This document shows positions 35,862 through 62,300 of a stretch of DNA of 64,000 nucleotides, piece after piece. How positions within the stretch are numbered: the first letter of the stretch is position 1; every line of letters begins with the position of its first letter. A model generated the notes under the pieces. That model saw only the letters and a program-made list of their open reading frames with translations, was not told the origin of the DNA and made no database searches. The position numbers and the translations under genes were made by a program. Location of the stretch: positions 129,177,121 through 129,241,120 of the forward strand of contig NC_091125.1 of assembly GCF_040183065.1 (NCBI RefSeq), read 5' to 3'. The DNA comes from Periplaneta americana (taxonomy: Eukaryota; Arthropoda; Insecta; Blattodea; Blattidae).

Positions 35862-38800
35862 ATTTTGCAAATAGCAAGGCAATTATATTCATGAACCTAA
35901 GGTGTATCTTGATCTCAAGATCTCTGAACACTTACAAAAATATGTAAACGGGCAATCTAACGATTCGGTTATTAGGCCTACCCTATGATCATAGGTCTGG
36001 TATTTGCTAGTTTGCACTTCATCAGATTCTTCCATTTGAAAATCCCTTTCTTATAGAATTTCTTTCTAATGGAATTGTAAAAGGTAAAAGGTAAAGGTAT
36101 GCCCGTAACATGCCATGAAGGCATTTGGGGGGCATGGAGGTAGAGCCCCATGCTTTCCATGACCTCGGCACTAGAATGAGGTGGTGTGGTCGGCACCACG
36201 CTCTGACCGCCTTTTACCCCCGGGAAAGACCCGGTACTCAATTTTATAGGAGGCTGAGTGAACCTCGGGGCCGTTCTGAAAGTTTGGCAACGAGAAAAAA
36301 TCCTGTCACCACCTGGGATCGAACCCCTGACCTTCCAGTCCGTAGCCAGCTGCTCTACCAACTGAGCTACCCGGCCACCCAATGGAATTGTAACTTGTGT
36401 AATTAAGAATTTCTTTTCTTATTGCCTATGCTAGGTTTATTGAATGACGAGATTTAGAGGAATTTTGCTGGTGAAAGTGCTTGTTCGTATGAATTTATTC
36501 GTTTTATTCAATTGTTAAAATCATTTGAAATATTCGAAATGTTAAGAAAATCATTCGAATGATTTCTGCGTAAGCAACCGAAAAGCTTCGGTTCTCACTG
36601 TAAAAAAAAGCGCTCTTTAAATGGCAAGCGATTTGTCCTTGAGCGCCTCGCGACCAGTGTCCAATGAGAAGGAGCGAAAAGAAAAAAAGTAGGCGCTCTT
36701 TATGCATGGAGCAGTAAGGTTCCACAAATATTAGTGTCCACTGGCTGTTTCGTAATTCGCATCCCACTTGAAATGTAAGTTGCAGCTGACATGATGATTA
36801 CACCATCCATGATATTACCGTATTTCTTCCTTATTTAACGTTTGTCCATTGTCACTGTATTGTCAGTGAATTCATTTCAGTACCAGTATTCAATTAGTAA
36901 GCACGAATTTCAAACTGAAAGACGCTAGTAGCAATGTGCGCATTAAAGCTCCTCTGTCCTCGACAGTGCATTGAATCAAAGATTGCATTCGAAATAAGTG
37001 ATAGGCCTATTCCAGCAACCAAAAAACTTCTCTTAATTTTTACAGAATTATAATTTTCGAATGATTTGATTTGAAACATATATTTCAGTAATCGAATATC
37101 CATTCGACTGCAAAAATCATTAGATTGTTCCCAACACTAATTCTTATGTTATTGCATTAAGAATTCGATTCTCCGCTGGGTGAATGGATACATTCCCAAT
37201 TTTCTGCTTTTTCTCATGTTAATTCGATATGCAGCTTCGAGACGGTACTTCTGTAGCTATTAGGTTTACGCAGTATATAAAAAAAAACTTTCATTACGTT
37301 GCAGTGTGTGAAAGTTTCAACTAATATTTTTAAGAATATTATTTGTCTTGTACTTACCCACAAGTTTCATATACTTGAGTTTTGAATTTTACTAATGTAA
37401 TTAAATATAAATATAATGTACTTGTCTTGCTATTGGCAAAATAATAATAATAGTATTAATAATACTAAAGATTAAGCCTTGTCATTCAATAAACCTAGCA
37501 TAGGCTAATAAGAAACATATCTCAGTATAATTCTAACTACAGCTTGTGTAGGGCTTTGAAAATAAGTGTCTAGCTTTGCTAATATAATGTAATTAAATTA
37601 ATCAATTTGCAAATACATATTGTCATGTTTTAACAGTTGGATCTTCGTAAGAGGTCATAAGAATCATCTAATTTCTTGCACAAATGTTAACTTGTACTAA
37701 TACAGGATGATTCAGTAAAAGCGTGCAAAAATTAAACAGGAAACAGGAAAACCTCTACAAAACATTTAGAAATAAGGAACTTGGGTCTGTGAAGTCAGAT
37801 TAAGGAGATGTACGTCTATATCTTTGTTTTCCATATTATCGACATTTATTATTTGAATTTTTTAGCTTGTTCTTTACGTTTATTTACAAATTATTATTTG
37901 CATTTGTTCGCACTTATAATTTGTTTTTATTTACATTTGAAATTACTTTCATAGTATTTATTTTACAAATCTAAGTTAACAATGTAGCCCACTATTATGT
38001 ACGTCACATGTGTTCGAAATGACTGCCATCAACATCTAGTATTTACTGTTAATATTAATATTTATTATCTACATTTACTTTTACATCTATTATTTCCATG
38101 TAGACAATTCATCATGTTTCGTCTTATGATGAAGGATGAGTGGAACGGAGAAAAATTCTCTCCGGTACCGGGATTTGAACCCGGGTTTTCAGCTCTACGT
38201 GCTGACGCTCTATCCACTAAGCCACACTGGATTCCCATCCCGATGTCGGATCGAATCCTCTCAGTTTAAGTTTCACCTCTTCGGTACATCGTAATAATAT
38301 ATGTTTCGTCTGGTGACCCATTATCCTCAAGGTCGTTCTGCCTATCGTATTTACATTGTCACATTACAAACATGATACGAGGCAACGACAGGCCCTTTGA
38401 TACCATTCGAAGAGTTAATCACAATGAGTGCAGTAGGTACGATGTTATCTCAAATTTGTAAACGATATAAACATAATTTTAAAGTATAAAGAAATGTAAA
38501 TAAATGTAAATAATAAGTGAAGAGTCCACTGCAAGAATGATGGATGTCACTTTCTTGTCGAAAATGAACCAAGACTGTCAATGCATAGCTTAAGACATAT
38601 AGAATGTACATAGAGAGTTATATGGCATTAACACTGATAGTCATTGTCCAGTAATGATCGCAAAATCACAGCTAGGCCTAAGCTTTGAGCGCTATGCATC
38701 TCAAACTTTCAATTGCTTCTCCTGAAAAATGTATTCCAAATGACATCCATCATTTTTGCAGTGGACTCTTCAAGTGTAAATAATAATTGCAAATACGTGT

Positions 38801-48640: not shown

Positions 48641-50033
48641 GCTATCTGCGCAGCTTCAGAAAAAGTTTCAACGGGTCTGTATCAGTTGCGCGGAAAGAGA
48701 TTAAACTTCATTGATTGCGCTCGAACCCCTTGAAAGTGAACACATCAATTGCGAGTGGGTCCTCTAGTTACGTATAAACAAATCAGTTGTTCGTGAACTT
48801 TCTTACTAGTGTGTAGAAAACTTAACTCGCCTTATAAGGAAAACGCAGAAATTGAGTAATGGCTCCAATGGTGTTTGGTTTAGCACTTCTAGATCCTGCA
48901 CAGGTCGGAAATGCTTTTGTTGAAGATTTGATTAACATCCAACCGGTAGATCATAATTTGACGAACTTCGTCGATAATTTTGTAACAAACTTAATACAAC
49001 TTGAAATATTATTTCTTCCCGAGATTTTGTCTTCAAATTCAAATATTTCTGAAAAAATTACAAAGACACGACAGGCGTTTCATAAAGTTATTCTCCTAAT
49101 TTTAACAGTGCACCATACATATTCACGAATTTGTTAATGCTGTCAGTCAAACACAAACGAGTGTATATTTATTAAAACGAATGGCAGAGACAAAGTTCCT
49201 AGGGTCAATTCTGCAAATAAAAAACACAAACAATACAATGAATAGCTTATTTCTCAATATGAATACAGGAATGTCAGTAGACAATATTTCCTCAAGAGTA
49301 TCTTTGTTATTACAAAAAGAAATAGCACATCTACCATGCATTGTGGGTCCCTATCACCACGGCATGGCGCGTCCTCAGATTGCGGATCGAGGAGACGGCC
49401 TCCAGATATGGAGGGTAGCTGCGAATATATTGAATAAGTAGTCGTGGACAGCCGATCAGGGGTGGTCCTCCAGCTTGGGGGTTGGGCGAAAGGCTAACAA
49501 CCCATCACCGTAAAAAACAGCTTGTTACGAAACCTCAAAATAAGCCTCGGAATGGGACTGATTCTCTGGCACGACCACAGCAAAGAAATAAGATTGGATT
49601 AATCTTGCTCAGGATAGGGACCCATGGCGGGCTTATGTGAAGGAGGCAATGAACCTGCGGGTTCCTTAAAAGCCAGTAAGTAAGTACATCTAACATTAAT
49701 GACAGTCTTCATGTACGACCAAGATAAGCAGTATTTTTAACCATACTTCTGTTGTTAGCATACTGCTGCATAAAGAGTCCTAAGTCCCTATAATGGGAAG
49801 GAACATGTGCTAGCTAACAAATTTGATTTGGGGGGGGGGGCGACATGTGCCTTGACTGCTGCCCCTTGAATACGCCCCTGTAACACTAAATGGTTTCTCA
49901 CCTGGAATGGACTCGATGTAGAAATCATCCTGTTGCCAATGTGGAACGTGTGCAAAGAACACACGGTATATGAAGTAAGCGCATAGCAGCGCCACCAGTA
50001 TGCAGAAGAGCACCCCCAGCACGATGATCACAA
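22062..50033 (-). CDS. Na+/K+-ATPase subunit beta, six-exon gene model lacking the N-terminal exon(s)
   Basis: Exons in transcript order are 50033-49902, 42802-42692, 39818-39655, 34054-33944, 26433-26265 and 22165-22062. They join without a frame break to about 263 residues plus a stop; family members are usually 300-320 residues, so roughly 50 N-terminal residues are missing. The beta subunit is a type II glycoprotein that chaperones the catalytic alpha subunit to the plasma membrane and tunes K+ affinity. Seen: one hydrophobic span (VIIVLGVLFCILVALL), an ectodomain with six cysteines in family order (SVEC, GKVC, WFPC, ATPC, WVSC, GVEC), the FGYHKATPCVFLRFNK block, potential N-glycosylation sites (NNS, NWT, NVT, NNT), GYFFPYNNTPNYLSPMVAV, and a C-terminus ending KFQLMID. 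Open frames, canonical splice sites and intact cysteines argue for a functional gene. It is divergent, so which insect paralog it is (nervana 1, 2 or 3 type or a beta-like protein) is left open. The introns are 2.9-7.5 kb and full of transposons. Confidence 0.92.
22211..22277 (+). repeat. (AAT)n microsatellite
   Basis: A trinucleotide run in the last intron of the beta-subunit gene, about 45 bp upstream (in gene sense) of the last acceptor. Confidence 0.95.
22536..23245 (+). mobile_element. Internally deleted mariner transposon
   Basis: A 710-bp element with perfect TIRs of about 29 bp (CGAGGGGGATCCAGGAAATA / inverse) and TA at each side. The transposase N-terminus from 22697 reads VRSVIRFLNARHLKPAEIYR and INVRKWCEMFNSR (HTH). 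A deletion then joins to a C-terminal frame at 22899-23129 with PYSPDLAPSDFHLF (third catalytic acid) and YDKCLNVGGDYVEK. The first two catalytic acids are gone, so it is non-autonomous. Confidence 0.93.
23168..23200 (+). repeat. (TA)n microsatellite
   Basis: A dinucleotide run inside the 3' part of the mariner. Confidence 0.9.
23377..23434 (+). repeat. (ATT)n microsatellite
   Basis: A trinucleotide run next to the LINE/mariner nest. Confidence 0.95.
23738..24652. mobile_element. Foldback/TIR element containing a LINE end
   Basis: Arms of about 100 bp (ATATAACAATTTTTGTGTTA...ATTACTCCAGAA) recur in inverse at 24560-24645. The LINE A 3' end at 24146-24446 was inserted between them. No transposase seen. 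Confidence 0.6.
24146..24446 (-). mobile_element. LINE family A 3' end
   Basis: The minus strand encodes GHVARMGESRNAYRVLVGRP, RPRRRWEDNIKMDLREMGYD and WINLAQDRDQWRAYVRAAMN. The 3' tail is (AAGT)n. An imperfect duplication GAAATTTT(T)CC flanks it. Confidence 0.85.
24656..25187 (+). repeat. Dispersed repeat, split by a MITE
   Basis: CTGAGGTTCTGGCTGATATG to GACAGTTGACTCAACAACAA matches 41159-41406 apart from the 24777-25025 insertion and small indels. Possibly a SINE with an (AAC)n tail, but no clear A or B box. Confidence 0.65.
24777..25025. mobile_element. 249-bp MITE, copy 1
   Basis: TIRs CGTCGTTGTTCCGGCAATAA and the inverse of TTATTGCAGGAATAACGACG are flanked by ATAT on both sides. The related uninterrupted locus at 41251 reads GGAATATGTAGC, so the insertion is visible by comparison. 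Confidence 0.8.
25571..25820. mobile_element. 250-bp MITE, copy 2
   Basis: The same family as 24777-25025, in the same orientation, again with ATAT on both sides. The interior is nearly collinear. Confidence 0.8.
26265..26433 (-). CDS. Na+/K+-ATPase beta, distal ectodomain exon
   Basis: An exon of 169 bp with acceptor cttcgcAG/ATGAAA and donor CCGATGG/GTGAGT. It encodes MKTIWVSCSGETPMD, the fifth conserved cysteine, then IGPVHYIPWQGFPGYFFPYN and NTPNYLSPMVAVSFERPMG. This is the strongest family match in the window (WVSCxGExP, GFPGYYxPYxN, YLSPxVAVxF). The first ATG is internal to the protein, not a start. It leaves one base for the last exon. Confidence 0.95.
26540..27130 (+). repeat. Purine-rich degenerate tandem repeat
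   Basis: About 600 bp of units around GAAAATATTAATGGAATGAA with variable length (roughly 25-40 bp). It lies just upstream (gene sense) of the 26265-26433 exon, in the adjoining intron. Confidence 0.8.
27267..27322 (+). repeat. (ATT)n microsatellite
   Basis: A trinucleotide run in an intron. Confidence 0.95.
27640..28025 (+). repeat. Imperfect tandem duplication of about 240 bp
   Basis: Blocks ACATTTCAAACTGAAAAATT...CTATAAAACATG...ATTTTAGTAAGT...TTTATTGTATTAGAG recur at 27650 and 27897 in the same order. Confidence 0.65.
28030..29200. other. No recognised gene
   Basis: Intronic sequence with no repeat or domain that I could identify. Confidence 0.35.
29208..29760 (+). mobile_element. Tc1/IS630-like transposase remnant
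   Basis: The frame QLSIRQRVFIVKTYWKTNSL then AFRKEFGVRNVPTRP is the N-terminal HTH region of this group. A deletion leads to FLRHHLKDRVYNNRPWSLSE in another frame, the usual C-terminal block (HLKDRVY..RP.SLEEL). Stops and frameshifts are present. Confidence 0.6.
29920..30741 (+). mobile_element. LINE (jockey-like) C-terminal fragment
   Basis: VKYLGIIFDNHLKWNQHINY is the post-catalytic segment of non-LTR reverse transcriptases. After a stop the long frame 30128-30553 continues (MYGIIGWGRLLKSN...). It ends in an (AAATA)n tail. 5'-truncated and broken. Confidence 0.75.
30742..30960 (-). mobile_element. LINE fragment, reverse orientation
   Basis: GYDVSHDRKSDLTNKLYKFQ and LMSGTIHRTLGKKTR...VMAVLMYGSENWAL match the reverse-transcriptase tail of LINE B-like elements. 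It abuts the A-rich tail of the preceding LINE. Confidence 0.7.
30965..32480. other. No recognised gene
   Basis: Intronic DNA. An open frame at 32128-32343 has no recognisable motif. Confidence 0.35.
32489..32573. repeat. Hairpin, arms of about 26 bp
   Basis: ATTCCACGCTTGTCTTGAA and TTCAAGATAAGCGTGGAAT are near-perfect inverses. Confidence 0.7.
32650..33178 (-). mobile_element. 529-bp TIR element, copy 2
   Basis: Termini CAGCGTATTCCGAATCTCAC and the inverse GTGAGATTCGGAATACGCTG, flanked by TAT (32647-32649 and 33179-33181). Same length as the copy at 1769-2297 and very similar to it in reverse. Several ACCGGT sites recur inside. Confidence 0.8.
33733..33801 (+). repeat. (ATT)n microsatellite
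   Basis: A trinucleotide run within 150 bp of an exon of the beta-subunit gene. Confidence 0.95.
33944..34054 (-). CDS. Na+/K+-ATPase beta, mid-ectodomain exon
   Basis: An exon of exactly 37 codons, phase 0 at both ends, acceptor ttttacAG/ATTGC and donor TCACTG/GTAAGC. It encodes IANWTPQFYSNVTELPPDMP and then ETLKLVISRQYKIYRSL. The INWxPxxY...LPxxMP pattern follows the LNK motif in beta subunits. NWT and NVT are candidate glycosylation sites. Confidence 0.92.
34251..34497 (-). mobile_element. 250-bp MITE (GAAGAGTCCACTGC family), copy 1
   Basis: The termini GAAGAGTCCACTGCAAGAAT and the inverse flank a conserved interior. Inverted relative to the copies at 38519 and 45716. Confidence 0.8.
34500..35180. 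other. No recognised gene
   Basis: Intronic DNA with no recognised element. Confidence 0.3.
35187..35223 (+). repeat. (AAT)n microsatellite
   Basis: A trinucleotide run in an intron. Confidence 0.95.
35501..35860 (+). repeat. (ATT)n microsatellite interrupted by a SINE
   Basis: Runs at 35501-35547 and 35804-35860 on either side of the SINE at 35548-35803. Confidence 0.9.
35548..35803 (-). mobile_element. tRNA-derived SINE, full length
   Basis: In reverse sense it begins GCCACCGGCGTGGCTCAGTC (A box) with B box GGTTCGATTCC, then a body ending CAGCGTCGTTAAAAAACCAA. It inserted into an (ATT)n tract. This is the reference copy for the fragments at 11-153 and 41720-41809. Confidence 0.88.
36081..36380 (-). 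mobile_element. tRNA-derived SINE with TSD
   Basis: In reverse sense it begins GGGTGGCCGGGTAGCTCAGT, with B box GGTTCGATCCC, and ends in an AAAGGTAAAAGG-type tail. AATGGAATTGTAA is duplicated at 36068-36080 and 36381-36393. Confidence 0.9.
36400..37690. other. No recognised gene
   Basis: Intronic AT-rich DNA. Several ATTCGAAT-like motifs are present but no defined element was recognised. Confidence 0.3.
38098..38251 (-). mobile_element. tRNA-derived SINE (tRNA-like head)
   Basis: In reverse sense TGTGGCTTAGTGGATAGAGC supplies the A box and GGGTTCAAATCCCGG a perfect B-box arm. The head looks like a tRNA, but no complete acceptor stem closes, and a non-tRNA body follows (CTCCGTTCCACTCATCC). 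Confidence 0.7.
38519..38771 (+). mobile_element. 250-bp MITE (GAAGAGTCCACTGC family), copy 2
   Basis: TIRs GAAGAGTCCACTGCAAGAAT and inverse. Inserted in the GTGTAAATAA array. Confidence 0.8.
38979..39212 (+). mobile_element. MITE (CAGGGGAAAA family), copy 1
   Basis: The termini GAAGAATACAGGGGAAAA and TTTTCCCCTGTGCTCTTC are near-inverse. Collinear with 55213-55458. Inserted in the same tandem array as its neighbour. Confidence 0.7.
39655..39818 (-). CDS. Na+/K+-ATPase beta, exon with the first two disulfide pairs
   Basis: An exon of 164 bp with acceptor gttacAG/CTTAC and donor AACAAG/GTATAT. It carries four of the six conserved ectodomain cysteines: VEC and KVC (first pair by family analogy), then WFPC and ATPC (second pair). 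NNS is a possible N-glycosylation site. The family signature FGYHKATPCVFLRFNK is intact. It ends in phase 0. Confidence 0.95.
40450..40970 (-). mobile_element. LINE (R2-like) C-terminal endonuclease fragment
   Basis: An open frame of 153 codons (40450-40911). STRRADIIIIDRQKDKGVIL DPTIRFE has the spacing of a PD-(D/E)xK-like core (AD ... DPTIRFE), and GARGTIPRETLNQLKQYKIS follows. Such a domain ends R2-clade non-LTR elements, and I recall similar insect ORFs annotated as retrotransposon-derived. It is 5'-truncated, with no reverse transcriptase. It could alternatively be a domesticated fragment. Confidence 0.55.
41159..41406 (+). repeat. Dispersed repeat, uninterrupted copy
   Basis: The same family as 24656-25187 without the MITE, ending GACAGTTGACTAAACAACAA. 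Confidence 0.65.
41720..41809 (-). mobile_element. SINE 3' fragment
   Basis: ACGACGCTGTATCAAGTAGC...GATGGTATTTGGC matches the 3' body of the SINE at 35548-35803. Confidence 0.7.
41866..42085. mobile_element. Foldback MITE, about 220 bp
   Basis: The arms begin AAGGCTGGTCCACAATAAAC and end in the inverse TTTCCAGCCTTTA. The inner arms (AATGTATTTAAATG...CATTCACAATTAAC) pair for about 100 bp. Confidence 0.75.
42692..42802 (-). CDS. Na+/K+-ATPase beta, membrane-proximal ectodomain exon
   Basis: An exon of 111 bp with acceptor tttgtAG/GTCTG and donor GAGAG/GTACTG. It encodes LRYGPPDKDGEDTLIHFSIS then PDRYLGWTKVMEEATR, corresponding to the GLxFRP...STLI region that follows the membrane span in beta subunits. 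It starts and ends in phase 1, matching both neighbours. Confidence 0.9.
43084..43587 (+). mobile_element. LINE (jockey-like) 3' fragment
   Basis: CQYIFSLKIFLVCNRENF, SINTRQK and, after frameshifts, KGVRYMAVKIFNSLPIDIKN then LKKYLISHVFYSVGEF are the far C-terminus of such reverse-transcriptase ORFs. The (AATAC)n tail is split by a Tigger-like element and resumes at 44425. Confidence 0.8.
43588..44422 (+). mobile_element. pogo/Tigger-like transposon, defective
   Basis: TIRs CAGTAGAACCCCGATTATCC and the inverse of GGATAATAGAGGTTCTACTG between TA dinucleotides. A broken CENP-B-type HTH start follows (MSSRSAKRIHVVLSIEE, then after a frameshift IIEWFRKRGTVVHLTSEYKV). The catalytic domain is missing and a reverse-oriented LINE fragment sits inside. 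Confidence 0.85.
43955..44255 (-). mobile_element. LINE B fragment inside the Tigger-like element
   Basis: On the minus strand it matches 54250-54540 (shared ATGCTGAAACTGATCAGG, GCCACTGGCTGA-type and AGACTAAGAGGAAGGCAG). Degenerate. Confidence 0.6.
44430..45345. other. No recognised gene
   Basis: Intronic DNA with no recognised element. Confidence 0.3.
45494..46462. mobile_element. hAT-type non-autonomous element, 969 bp
   Basis: The termini TAGAGATGAACAA and TTGTTCATCTCTA are perfect inverses flanked by the 8-bp duplication GTAGCAGT (45486-45493 and 46463-46470). GAGACTCGAA-rich subterminal sequence. No transposase. Confidence 0.88.
45716..45962 (+). mobile_element. 250-bp MITE (GAAGAGTCCACTGC family), copy 3
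   Basis: Nested in the hAT at 45494-46462. The interior is collinear with 38519-38771. Confidence 0.85.
46512..46552 (+). repeat. (TA)n/(CATA)n microsatellite
   Basis: A dinucleotide run. Confidence 0.9.
46807..46878 (+). repeat. (AAT)n/(ATT)n palindromic microsatellite
   Basis: An AAT run turns into an ATT run at about 46858, giving a potential hairpin. Confidence 0.9.
46886..47508. mobile_element. hAT-like non-autonomous element
   Basis: The termini TAGAGACGAGAATTTC and GAGATTCTCGTCTCTA are inverse. Many AAATATGCAT-type motifs inside. The 8-bp flanks (GTTGTAAC / TAACAATA) do not match, so superfamily assignment rests on the ends. Confidence 0.5.
47698..47753 (+). repeat. (TA)n microsatellite
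   Basis: A dinucleotide run at the 3' end of the neighbouring reverse SINE. Confidence 0.95.
47758..47952 (-). mobile_element. tRNA-derived SINE
   Basis: In reverse sense GCCGGCCCGGATGGCTCAAG (A box) and GGGTTCGAGTCCCGCC (B box), then a short body ending at the (TA)n tail. Confidence 0.78.
47955..48540. other. No recognised gene
   Basis: Intronic DNA, nothing recognised. Confidence 0.3.
48556..48640 (+). repeat. (TTTA)n microsatellite
   Basis: A long tetranucleotide run. Confidence 0.95.
48790..49180 (+). pseudogene. MULE-type transposase remnant
   Basis: MVFGLALLDPAQVGNAFVED and NLTNFVDNFVTNLI resemble the LALVPxxxVxxAFExL ... LxDYFExTWIG region of MULE transposases. After a frameshift HIHEFVNAVSQTQTSVYLLK resembles the following NIYxFVxxLxxIQxxxYIxxR segment. 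The catalytic acids are not visible and the frame is broken. Confidence 0.5.
49334..49685 (+). mobile_element. LINE A 5'-UTR/3'-end deletion derivative with TSD
   Basis: 352 bp. The left 250 bp (CAGATATGGAGGGTAGCTGC...TGGGACTGATTCTCTGGCAC) looks like the 5' leader of the LINE A type. It is joined directly to the LINE A 3' end (TGGATTAATCTTGCTCAGGA...TTCCTTAAAAGCC) with an (AAGT)n tail. ACATCTA is duplicated at 49327-49333 and 49686-49692, so the deleted form itself was mobilised. Confidence 0.75.
49902..50033 (-). CDS. Na+/K+-ATPase beta, transmembrane exon
   Basis: The first recognisable coding exon, 132 bp, enters in phase 1 with two bases completing a codon. The acceptor reads tttcAG/TTGTG and the donor CCAG/GTGAGA. 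It encodes a hydrophobic segment of about 20 residues (VIIVLGVLFCILVALLCAYF), then IYRVFFAHVPHWQQDDFYIE and the SIPG turn that in this family precedes GLRF/GLRY. The last base (G) joins GT of the next exon to make the glycine of PGLRYGPP. The phase implies at least one upstream coding exon. Confidence 0.9.
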
Positions 50034-50253
50034 CTGAAACAAGACAATAGCGAAATAATAATGTCCATGAAACTTCGTAAGCGACGATAAAATTTAAGAG
50101 CTTCACTCATGTCATGGGTAAATAATTTTTTTTTTCTAAATTTTTACAGAAAACGATAGTCAAAATATTCTTAAAAACCTATTAATTACCCTTCTAAACT
50201 CATATTCCATTAATTTAAAATATAATACACAATTGAACAATTGTACAAATATA

Positions 50254-58440: not shown

Positions 58441-58448
58441 AAAGTAAA

Positions 58449-58468
58449 ATAAATAAATAAATAAATAA

Positions 58469-58519
<51 letters not shown>

Positions 58520-58645
58520 GTAAATAAATAATTAGGCTAAGTAAATAAGTAAATAAATAATTAGGCTAAGTAAATAAGTAAATAAATATTTAGGCTAAGT
58601 AAATAAGTAAATAAATAATTAGACTAAGTAAATAAGTAAATAAAT
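58449..58645 (+). repeat. (AAAT)n followed by four 29-bp repeats
   Basis: A tetranucleotide run, then four tandem units of TAGGCTAAGTAAATAAGTAA plus nine bases. Confidence 0.9.
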
Positions 58646-58909
58646 AAAAAGTAGCAGGAGATTCACAGGATCCTGTAATTGCGTGAAACATTATGCTCTC
58701 GGTAGGGTGTCATTGTGATATTTAGAGTTTTAATAAATTGGTTCTTATTTATAAGAATTGTGAATATGTTTGAGAATTAAGTAAATTGCAGTTTGTGTTA
58801 TATTATTAATGATTATTTTTTCTTTATTTCTTTATTGAATAATATACACCATAGACCTATATCTGTATAATTATTTATAATGGAACTACTGTTTTTATGT
58901 AAATGAACC

Positions 58910-59206
58910 GTTGCTAAGGAAGTGATGTCAGAATAATATGACGTAATTCATTGCCGTTGCTAACCAATTGACATCAAAATAGTGTGAAGTAACTCATTGT
59001 CGTTGCTAAGCAACTGACGTCAGGATAATGCGAAGTAACTCATTGCCGTTGCTGAGTAACTGACGTCAGAATAGTGTGAAGTAACTCATGCCGTTGCTAA
59101 GCAACTGACGTCAGAATAGTGTGAAGTAACTCATTGCCATTGCTAAGAAACTGACGTCAGAATAGTGTAAAGTAACTCATAGTCGTTGCTAAGCAACTGA
59201 CGCCAG
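58910..59206 (+). repeat. 46-bp minisatellite with X-box-like and CRE-like motifs
   Basis: Seven units start at 58910, 58956, 59002, 59048, 59093, 59139 and 59185. The core is GTTGCTAAGCAAC directly followed by TGACGTCA. Units 3 and 5 have both motifs perfect. Unit 7 has a perfect palindrome; units 4 and 6 have a perfect TGACGTCA. The first is the palindromic form bound by RFX proteins, the second the canonical CREB/ATF site (established knowledge). Function here is inference. Confidence 0.92.
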
Positions 59207-59214
59207 ATGTTGAA

Positions 59215-60690
59215 ATTTTCGTAAAATTTTATTCATTTGACGCTCGATCATAAAACATTTCGCGTTAAAACATAGATTTATATTTTGTTTCCCTCACTTA
59301 CTAGGTTTTGCCCCTTGTAAGAAATAATGATTAAAATTAATTTCAGTTACCATTGAGTGTGTTGTGTGAATTAAGAAGACATTACCCATTGAAGTCATTA
59401 TTCTCATTGGAGTATGCTGATAACTCAGAGTATTTTTTCAGCCGATGCGAACGCTGCAAGTCTTCATCTGTTGACCATGTTGTTGTGCTACTACAGTTTT
59501 CGTAGTTTATATTGATATTTTAGTCGGGGAAGTTGGAAGTAATCAAGAAATAGGAAACGCATCACTTTTATTATGAAAGGAGGAAGGAGTATTTAATTTT
59601 TTTACTAGCGGGAAAATAACTTGTTTATTGTGCCATTGAAGTAGGATATAAGTAAGAAAACACATTTGGAATTCCATCATATAACAGTACATCCAGGAAC
59701 AGAACATTTTCCTATGCTAAGTAAAGTTCTGTAACACAAAAAGTCATTATTTCCCATTTCAAACAACTCTGTATTCTTTTTATAGTAGCTCGCCAATCAA
59801 ATGAACATGTTCAAAGTATGTCCCAGGTCTAGATAGTTTGGCGCCCGAGGTTACGTCAGCTGAGAAAATATTTTCAAACAGAAATATACAGTTTTTAATG
59901 GAACACGAAATATTTTCAAGGCGAACTTCTAAGTAAAGGGGGCGATTGTATTAACAATATTTGTTCCAGTTTCCTGAGCAATGCACTTAGAGCTATGTTA
60001 ACAGTTGTCTATAATTAATACCGATTAGAATTTTATTATAACACGTTTATTGACTTTTATGAAAGATATTTTTCGCAGACAATCGTCATGGTGGATCATT
60101 GTTAGCGCGCTGTACTTGTATAAGCCAGACAGTTCTGAATTTTGAAACTAGTGCTGGACAAACCCGTGGTCCTGGTAACACGGGAGTTTTCTCTAGGTAC
60201 TTTAGTTCCCCGGGTGACATCCCAACAATTCTTCACTATGTTCAGTACCAGTGTAATATAGATCCACCGCCTGTGGTGCATTCTGGTTAGTCTCTACATT
60301 TCTCGATACTAACGAATAACAGAACGTTTACATTTTCAAAAAGAAATAAAGGCTATTCAGTAGTTTGCATTAAAAGACTAAATGCATTCGAAGTACTTTA
60401 AGTAACTTATTTACAAGTAACGAAAAAGTGACTTCATAATTTTTATGTTGAACATAATTCAGTGTGCAGTAAAAGTGAGAATAAGCTTCACTGGGCGTGG
60501 CAGGCAGAAAAGTGGAGATTCATCTCCGTCCCATCGGACTGGGTGTGTGTCGTCCCTTGTGCTGTGTTAATTCTATTTCGTCTTTAGTAATAACCTCGTA
60601 CCACAATAGTCACAAAGTTAGGAACTCTCTAGTATATGCGAATTTTTTTAATTTATTATTCCCCAATATTAGCACTTTTATCAATATTCT
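59215..60690. other. No recognised gene
   Basis: An open frame at 60099-60290 and the segment 60130-60300 (GCTGGACAAACCCGTGGT...) may belong to a dispersed repeat but cannot be assigned. Confidence 0.3.
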
Positions 60691-60694
60691 TCCG

Positions 60695-60984
60695 AAAAAA
60701 ATACAGTTATCTAAAGTATTCGACCAATATCGACATCATTATCTCTAATATTGTTCCGATAAGGTAATCTACAATCTACTTTTCTTCCGGTATCAATGCC
60801 ATTATCGACATCCCACCGAAACAATACCGTTATTTATAGTATCGAACAATATCGATATCATTATCTCTAATATTGTTTCGATATCGTATTCTGCAATCTA
60901 CTGTTCTTCCGATATCAATGCCATTATCTATATCCTTCCGAAACAATATCGTTATCTATAGTATTCGACCAATGTCGATATCGA
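60695..60984 (+). repeat. 120-bp satellite, left block
   Basis: Units contain TCTCTAATATTGTTCCGATA, then TACAATCTACT-TTCTTCCGGTATCAATGCC, then CCGAAACAATACCGTTAT. The spacing is about 120 bp. Confidence 0.85.
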
Positions 60985-61700: not shown

Positions 61701-62300
61701 ATAACGTTATCGCTAATATTGTTTCGATACCGTATAATCTACAATTCACTGTTCTTCTGGTATCAATGCTATTATCAATATTCTTCCGAAACAACCGTTA
61801 TGTATAGCATTCGACCAATGTCAATACCGTTTTCTCTAATATTGTTCCGATACCGTGAACTACAATCTACTGTTCTTCCGGTAACAATGCCATTACCATT
61901 ATCCCACCGAAACAATACCGTTATCTACAGTATTCGACCAATATCGATATCGTTATCTCTAACATTGTTCCGATACCGTGATCTACAATCTACTGTTCTT
62001 CCGGTATCAATGTCATTATCATTATCCCCCGAAATAATGCCGTTATTTATAGTATTGGAACAAAATCGATATCGTTATCTCTACTATTGTTCCGATACCG
62101 TTACCTACAATCTACTCTTCTTTTGATATCAATACCTTTATCAATATTCTTCCGAAACAATACCGTTATGTGTAGGGTACTATTCTTCCAGAACTGATAC
62201 TGTTATTTACATTGTTCTTCCGATAACGATAACAATATTACCGTTATCTACACGATTTTTTTATCTTGATACTGTTGTCTATACACTATTCTTCCGATAC
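61701..62300 (+). repeat. 120-bp satellite, right block
   Basis: At least four further units (starts near 61707, 61832, 61952 and 62073), then increasingly degenerate ones. Confidence 0.85.

Follow-up and report, generated by a model that had tools for sequence, protein, structure and literature searches.

The locus and its tandem array

The window analysed here is a stretch of 64,000 bp from the genome of Periplaneta americana (C9:129177121-129241120), and the genome searched for copies comprised 3.23 Gb in 91 contigs. An Rfam search of the whole window gave a single match, a tRNA, at 38160-38231 of the minus strand (53.2 bits, above the Rfam gathering score), which is either a gene or a tRNA-derived repeat. 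The original prediction placed its repeat 8.9 kb upstream of beta-subunit exons, which are putative: the one minus-strand open reading frame searched near 50 kb (49813-50106) gave no Pfam match to E 0.1 and no PDB match to E 1. Two minisatellites with a period of 122-123 bp, at 60678-60982 and 61701-62169, belong to one family (84% over 310 bp) and were unrelated, in a model search, to the 46-bp unit described below.

The feature under study is a tandem array at 58908-59207, for which Tandem Repeats Finder gave a period of 46, 6.5 copies, 85% matches and a score of 432 in the window. Its units start at 58908, 58954, 59000, 59046, 59091, 59137 and 59183. The original prediction was of seven units of 45-46 bp; the repeat and its unit length are real (five units of 46 bp and one of 45 bp), and the seventh unit, at 59183-59207, is a partial one of 25 bp. 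Read on the plus strand, an X-box-like palindrome directly abuts a CRE-like octamer in all seven units, as had been claimed, and the variable spacer said to separate the two motifs does not exist there. The palindrome GTTGCTAAGCAAC is exact in three units and the octamer TGACGTCA in four. Both are exact in only two of the seven, where several intact pairs had been announced; exact string search places the composite GTTGCTAAGCAACTGACGTCA at 59002-59022 (unit 3) and at 59093-59113 (unit 5), both on the plus strand. In the first unit (58908-58953) the octamer is preceded by GGAAG. The names RFX-like and CRE-like are reasonable as descriptions of the letters, since four of the seven units fit the restricted Drosophila X-box consensus GYTRYY N1-3 RRHRAC (PMC2375033, of which part of the text was available). 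When GTTGCTAAGCAAC was searched with up to two mismatches on both strands of the window, 13 matches were obtained, against a mean of 1.53 and a maximum of 6 in 100 shuffles.

The array is the core of a dispersed element

To see what surrounds the palindrome elsewhere, 67 non-redundant loci were read around the first GTTGCTAAGCAAC places listed in the genome, so that each of them had been chosen for an exact palindrome. A model of 412 positions was built from ten of these loci, the window not being among the seeds. This model matches the window at 58649-58976 (E 2.9e-66) and again at 59137-59270 (E 1e-33), and it matches 28 of the 67 palindrome loci, the ten seeds included. Homology therefore continues on both sides of the array, and the model together with end alignment delimits an element of 620 bp on the minus strand, with its 5' end at 59270 and its 3' end at 58651. 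In 12 copies, including that in the window, the left end falls at model positions 2-11, and the majority of right ends lie near 398-405. A free-standing minisatellite is ruled out, since the DNA on either side of the array is homologous to flanking DNA elsewhere in the genome. An A-rich array of AAAT/TAAG type at 58447-58648 (Tandem Repeats Finder), T-rich on the element strand, touches the 3' end of the element and was likely the insertion target.

The search for other copies that the original prediction called for found the repeat at many loci. Genome-wide, 1180 exact copies of the palindrome were counted (656 + 524). The reversed string, used as a control, gave 26, a figure that may be low owing to the two CpG in it. 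For the exact 21-bp composite the count was 121 (62 + 59), and the reversed control gave 0; the matches listed lie on at least 14 contigs and include the third and fifth units of the window array. With the array as DNA query, 1061 first-look candidates (40 of them scored) and 293 matches were obtained, with non-self identities of 79-86% among the matches listed. Arrays of 5-6 kb were found elsewhere (for example C8:4009185-4015326 and C7:77960822-77966266). The array-free left part of the element gave 1285 candidates, and the 40 that were scored gave 40 matches. Both 1061 and 1285 are numbers of candidates, mostly unscored, and not of confirmed copies.

The remaining 39 of the 67 loci (e.g. 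L005, L013, L041, L061) carry the exact palindrome in surroundings unlike the element; real RFX sites or repeats of another kind may be among them. On C2, at about 2.4-9.3 Mb, six loci (L049, L055, L056, L057, L058, L059) have palindromes with similar flanks, and by eye they form a second local repeat family with the GTTGCTAAGCAAC palindrome.

The family consensus has the architecture of a HINE

According to the part of PMC4067079 available to us, HINEs are non-autonomous Helentrons, DINE-1 included, some copies of which have tandem repeats. Read on the minus strand, the parts of our family consensus come in the order TTTTAAC, 5' subterminal inverted repeat (subTIR), tandem repeats, interior, 3' subTIR, 3' hairpin and T-rich flank. 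This order is that of the published HINE description, and the element was likened to a HINE for this reason. The inverted repeat of the consensus, CGTGAAACGTTTATG(T/C)TC, has arms that match at 17 of 18 positions and scores 31, while the highest score in 2000 shuffles was 27. The arm is itself palindromic and folds as AACGT-GAA-ACGTT; published HINE subTIRs are about 12-15 bp long and, in mite families, palindromic as well (PMC4067079, in the same part). Outside the left arm lies a 3' stem-loop, ACAGGG...CCCTGT, which folds at -4.4 kcal/mol with DNA parameters.

In the window copy, all on the minus strand, the 3' terminal stem-loop region corresponds to 58654-58676 (window letters CAGGA...TCCTG), the 3' subTIR arm to 58682-58698 and the 5' arm to 59246-59264, both arms being degraded. 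The subTIR begins about 4 nt from the 5' end, and the 3' arm has its outer edge 31 bp and its inner edge 47 bp from the 3' end. In published HINEs the distance of the subTIR to the terminus is 2-4 nt on the 5' side and about 38-60 bp on the 3' side, with no measuring rule given in the text available to us, and the HINE insertion site is described there as T-rich, with at least two T on either side (PMC4067079). On the plus strand, all 12 left ends have at least three A among the five bases outside, and 15 of 19 right ends have at least three A in the four bases after GTT, which in an AT-rich genome is modest evidence. Central tandem repeats were found in the window array, in L026, L028, L067 and L068, and in 20 further arrays. 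The inverted repeat of individual copies is weak. Ten copies had best own-end scores of 11-27 (unturned control 12-18), and in four of the ten, the window included, the best own-end match was not the subTIR. The case for a HINE is made by the family consensus.

Cockroach element and HINE/DINE-1-like elements have in common a non-coding dispersed repeat, palindromic subTIRs, a 3' stem-loop, T-rich flanks and, in some copies of both, tandem repeats. Unlike them, the cockroach unit contains an X-box-like palindrome abutting a CRE-like octamer, and no such motifs are described for HINEs in the part of PMC4067079 at hand. That HINEs can bear satellite-like arrays is reported for Cg_HINE of the Pacific oyster (PMC7492417, also available in part), in which an array lies between two flanking subTIR modules, with a 3' palindrome and a preference for insertion at oligo-T, as in the cockroach. 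The oyster monomers are different ones, whereas here the monomer has 46 bp and stands beside an ordinary two-unit form; the left module of Cg_HINE also has a microsatellite and an extra inverted repeat. Taken as a whole, the comparison makes the element a newly mapped transposon family within the known HINE type. We judge it probable, at roughly 0.78, that the array is the central tandem block of an old, non-coding HINE-type element on the minus strand at 58651-59270.

Other classes of element were considered and rejected. A canonical Helitron ends in CTRR after its 3' hairpin; here the consensus has no CTRR 3' end and closes with ...CCCCTGTCAC and then the T-rich flank (element strand). A solo LTR is ruled out by consensus ends that are not TG...CA. 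A MITE with terminal inverted repeats does not fit repeats that are subterminal, with about 30 bp and a hairpin outside the 3' arm. For a SINE or another RNA known to Rfam, no gathering match was obtained in L043, L025, L001 and L028. One fixed long internal insert was also discarded, as only three pairs among nine gap segments compared shared a stretch of 33-76 bp. In the literature searched, the cockroach genome papers included, no report of this element was found, which does not prove that it is unpublished; the strings GTTGCTAAGCAAC and GTTGCTTAGCAAC were not found in the papers searched, nor was a paper on a transposon combining an RFX X-box with a CRE.

Probable growth of the array from an ordinary two-unit form

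Many ordinary copies of the element contain two 46-bp units (15 loci counted). The first unit ends in GCAAG before the CRE at nine of the 15 loci and in GCAAC at five, and the second unit runs into GATGTTGAAA. At least two dispersed copies, L037 and L047, have a single unit. In the window, the first unit has the G typical of first units (GGAAG) and the last, partial unit leads directly into the right side found in ordinary copies, as shown by unit alignment and model match. Because the end units thus resemble the ordinary first and last units, the array seems to have grown between them. At other loci different segments were amplified, of about 132 bp in L026, 113 bp in L068 and 96 bp in L067, from which we infer that local amplification occurred more than once.

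A course of events can be proposed. The X-box-CRE pair would originally have been part of the transposon's own 5' region, and copies would have spread by rolling-circle transposition with an autonomous partner acting in trans. Slippage, unequal exchange or over-replication may have taken two units to 6.5 at this locus, and the window array would now be in neutral decay.

As regards the putative partner, a Helitron_like_N profile search of the genome gave 9274 candidates, and all 150 that were scored matched. Helitron-type Rep domains are abundant genome-wide, and some lie in open frames as long as 692 aa (L109-L112). From the 150, a small sample of 18 Rep stretches was taken, mainly for score or open frame. 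The catalytic motif was legible in nine of them, eight with QKRGLPH and one with GFPH beside a stop. In the available part of PMC4067079, GLPH is given as the Helitron form of the Rep motif and GSPH as the Helentron type; none of the nine legible motifs was of the GSPH type. No copy of the element was found within about 3.3 kb upstream of Rep in four stretches (best model match E 0.25). An autonomous Helentron partner was thus not found among the Rep stretches sampled.

Divergence of the motifs and of the rest of the unit

The original prediction asked whether motif bases vary less between units than the flanking 25 bp. Measured against the consensus of the window array, 11 of 147 X-box and CRE positions are changed, and 12 of 153 in the rest of the units (p=1.0). 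The comparison was extended to 20 other arrays, at loci taken from the listed matches and picked by whole-array similarity, and 233 of 293 unit rows with at least 40 aligned columns were kept. The motifs differ at 243/4861 positions and the rest at 238/5543 (p=0.09), so that the motifs are slightly more variable, CpG not being separated; by part, the values are 130/2998 for the X-box, 113/1863 for the CRE and 238/5543 for the rest. Both motifs are exact in 15 of the 233 units, and they are broken in the consensus of several arrays. Judged by these substitutions, the arrays drift, and the motifs are no more conserved in them than the rest of the unit.

Dispersed copies gave a different picture. 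A motif-blind set was formed from 20 of the 39 non-self matches of the array-free left part, namely those reaching query base 238 or beyond. Twelve of the 20 still have a whole or partial unit, and eight have none in the stretch read. This yielded 13 first-unit rows (11 loci) and 10 second-unit rows, in which either C or G was allowed at the last X-box base. At non-CpG positions the motif differs at 31/405, compared with 44/242 in the spacer (p=7e-5); compared with 320/3101 in the left interior the motif is not clearly less diverged (p=0.095). For the second-unit CRE by itself the value is 9/60 non-CpG positions. Most first units have G as their last X-box base and so depart from the restricted consensus, and the exact palindrome stands in the consensus of the second unit only.

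A further count was made on palindrome-anchored copies at the 15 two-unit loci. Since selection of the 67 loci had required an exact palindrome, the count was restricted to the first unit, which is not the anchor. With G allowed at the last X-box base, the X-box plus CRE differ at 13/263 positions and the spacer at 38/325 (p=0.005); with G disallowed, the values are 22/263 and 38/325 (p=0.22). A modest constraint on the motifs within the transposon's own lineage is possible on these counts.

What the motif pair may do

The view that the window array is a host enhancer, in which strong RFX and CREB/ATF sites serve a nearby gene, can draw on the two units with both motifs exact and on the four that fit the restricted Drosophila RFX consensus (PMC2375033, available in part). 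We regard it as highly improbable, as motif bases are as variable as the rest here (p=1.0) and in the 20 other arrays, arrays of 5-6 kb are present at other loci, and the frame at 49813-50106 gave no Pfam or PDB match that would name a target gene. A regulatory role of the window array is not supported by what its letters show. The cluster of strong transcription-factor sites put forward at the outset is therefore less favoured than the neutral repeat named beside it, which fits best: the repeat is present at many loci, and motif bases in arrays vary as fast as the rest of the unit, which is the sequence part of what the original prediction had named as refuting it. Most likely the window array is an ordinary minisatellite of mobile DNA rather than a gene switch. 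MHC class II genes are a gene set of jawed vertebrates, and their promoters need a spaced Y/CCAAT box at a fixed distance downstream of X2. The parallel that had been drawn with the X1/X2 boxes of these promoters is not supported beyond the presence of an RFX-type site beside a CRE-type site. In contrast to them, the cockroach unit is a tandem transposon repeat in an insect, and an S-X-Y module was rejected because the unit has no spaced Y/CCAAT box; ATTGG is absent from the array, and its single CCAAT, at 58964, lies in a mutated X-box.

A role for the transposon itself is a separate matter. The X-box and the CRE next to it lie about 60 bp in from the 5' end and might serve the Helentron family as promoter or enhancer, attracting insect RFX and CREB/ATF, perhaps in germ-line or ciliated cells, with the arrays as relics or by-products. 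We hold this reading, which is compatible with the HINE-type explanation, as tentative and on the doubtful side. In the consensus an exact X-box abuts an exact CRE, a pairing expected about 5e-7 times in 400 bp of that composition, although this figure is post hoc and the copies are palindrome-anchored; an autonomous copy could have its promoter where the pair lies, and motif-blind copies show lower divergence in the motif than in the spacer. A parallel exists in a retroviral LTR with an EF-C/RFX-type site (PMC7077297, seen in part). RFX2 and CREM each act in mouse spermiogenesis according to the portion of PMC4745085 available, which makes germ-line use thinkable. Against a promoter stand the G at the last X-box base of most motif-blind first units, which is outside the restricted consensus, the 9/60 differences in the second-unit CRE, the exactness of both motifs in just 15 of 233 array units, and the failure of our sample to yield an autonomous copy that would show the downstream gene.

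The main rival at the level of the transposon is that the palindromic 46-bp units are iteron-like, that is, sites for the element's own Rep/helicase or for a rolling-circle structure, and resemble RFX and CREB sites by chance. Iterons flank the Rep origins of other rolling-circle replicons, and the direct repeats of this rolling-circle-type element carry palindromes near its 5' end, the subTIR arms being palindromic as well. We consider it unlikely; L037 and L047 have a single unit, so that two units are not in every copy. Quite unlikely, too, is a wider reading in which the Helentron family would carry a composite RFX-CREB site for the regulation of its own 5' region, spread in at least 121 exact copies, some of them amplified into arrays, with a minority acting as host enhancers or as RFX/CREB sinks in germ-line or ciliated cells. 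Such a transposon-built network would resemble the ISX helitron of Drosophila miranda (PMC4384637, known to us in part), likewise a Helitron-type element spreading a recognition motif for a host protein. The ISX motifs bind the MSL complex and were put to the test in vivo; those of the cockroach, read from sequence, show no constraint in arrays.

With the HINE-type reading preferred, a tempting enhancer candidate becomes a mapped transposon family with a simple recognition rule. Should the motif pair bind RFX and CREB, the exact, damaged and arrayed sites of the family across the genome would make up a natural panel for asking how a mobile element recruits host transcription factors and whether the arrays affect nearby genes. 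If it does not, the locus would illustrate that a perfect tandem composite motif should not be taken as evidence of an enhancer when the genome is rich in repeats.

Variants of the element

By eye, 12 copies (L002, L028, L031, L066, L089, L092, L094, L095, L098, L102, L104, L105) share an extra internal segment (...AAGTCTATC...GAGTCTGATCC) before the units, which suggests a second, longer subfamily. None of the open reading frames of at least 110 aa in the 67 loci looked helitron-like by eye. Near one element copy, at L066:990-1358 on the plus strand, there is a frame of 123 aa with a signal-peptide-like start and several cysteines.
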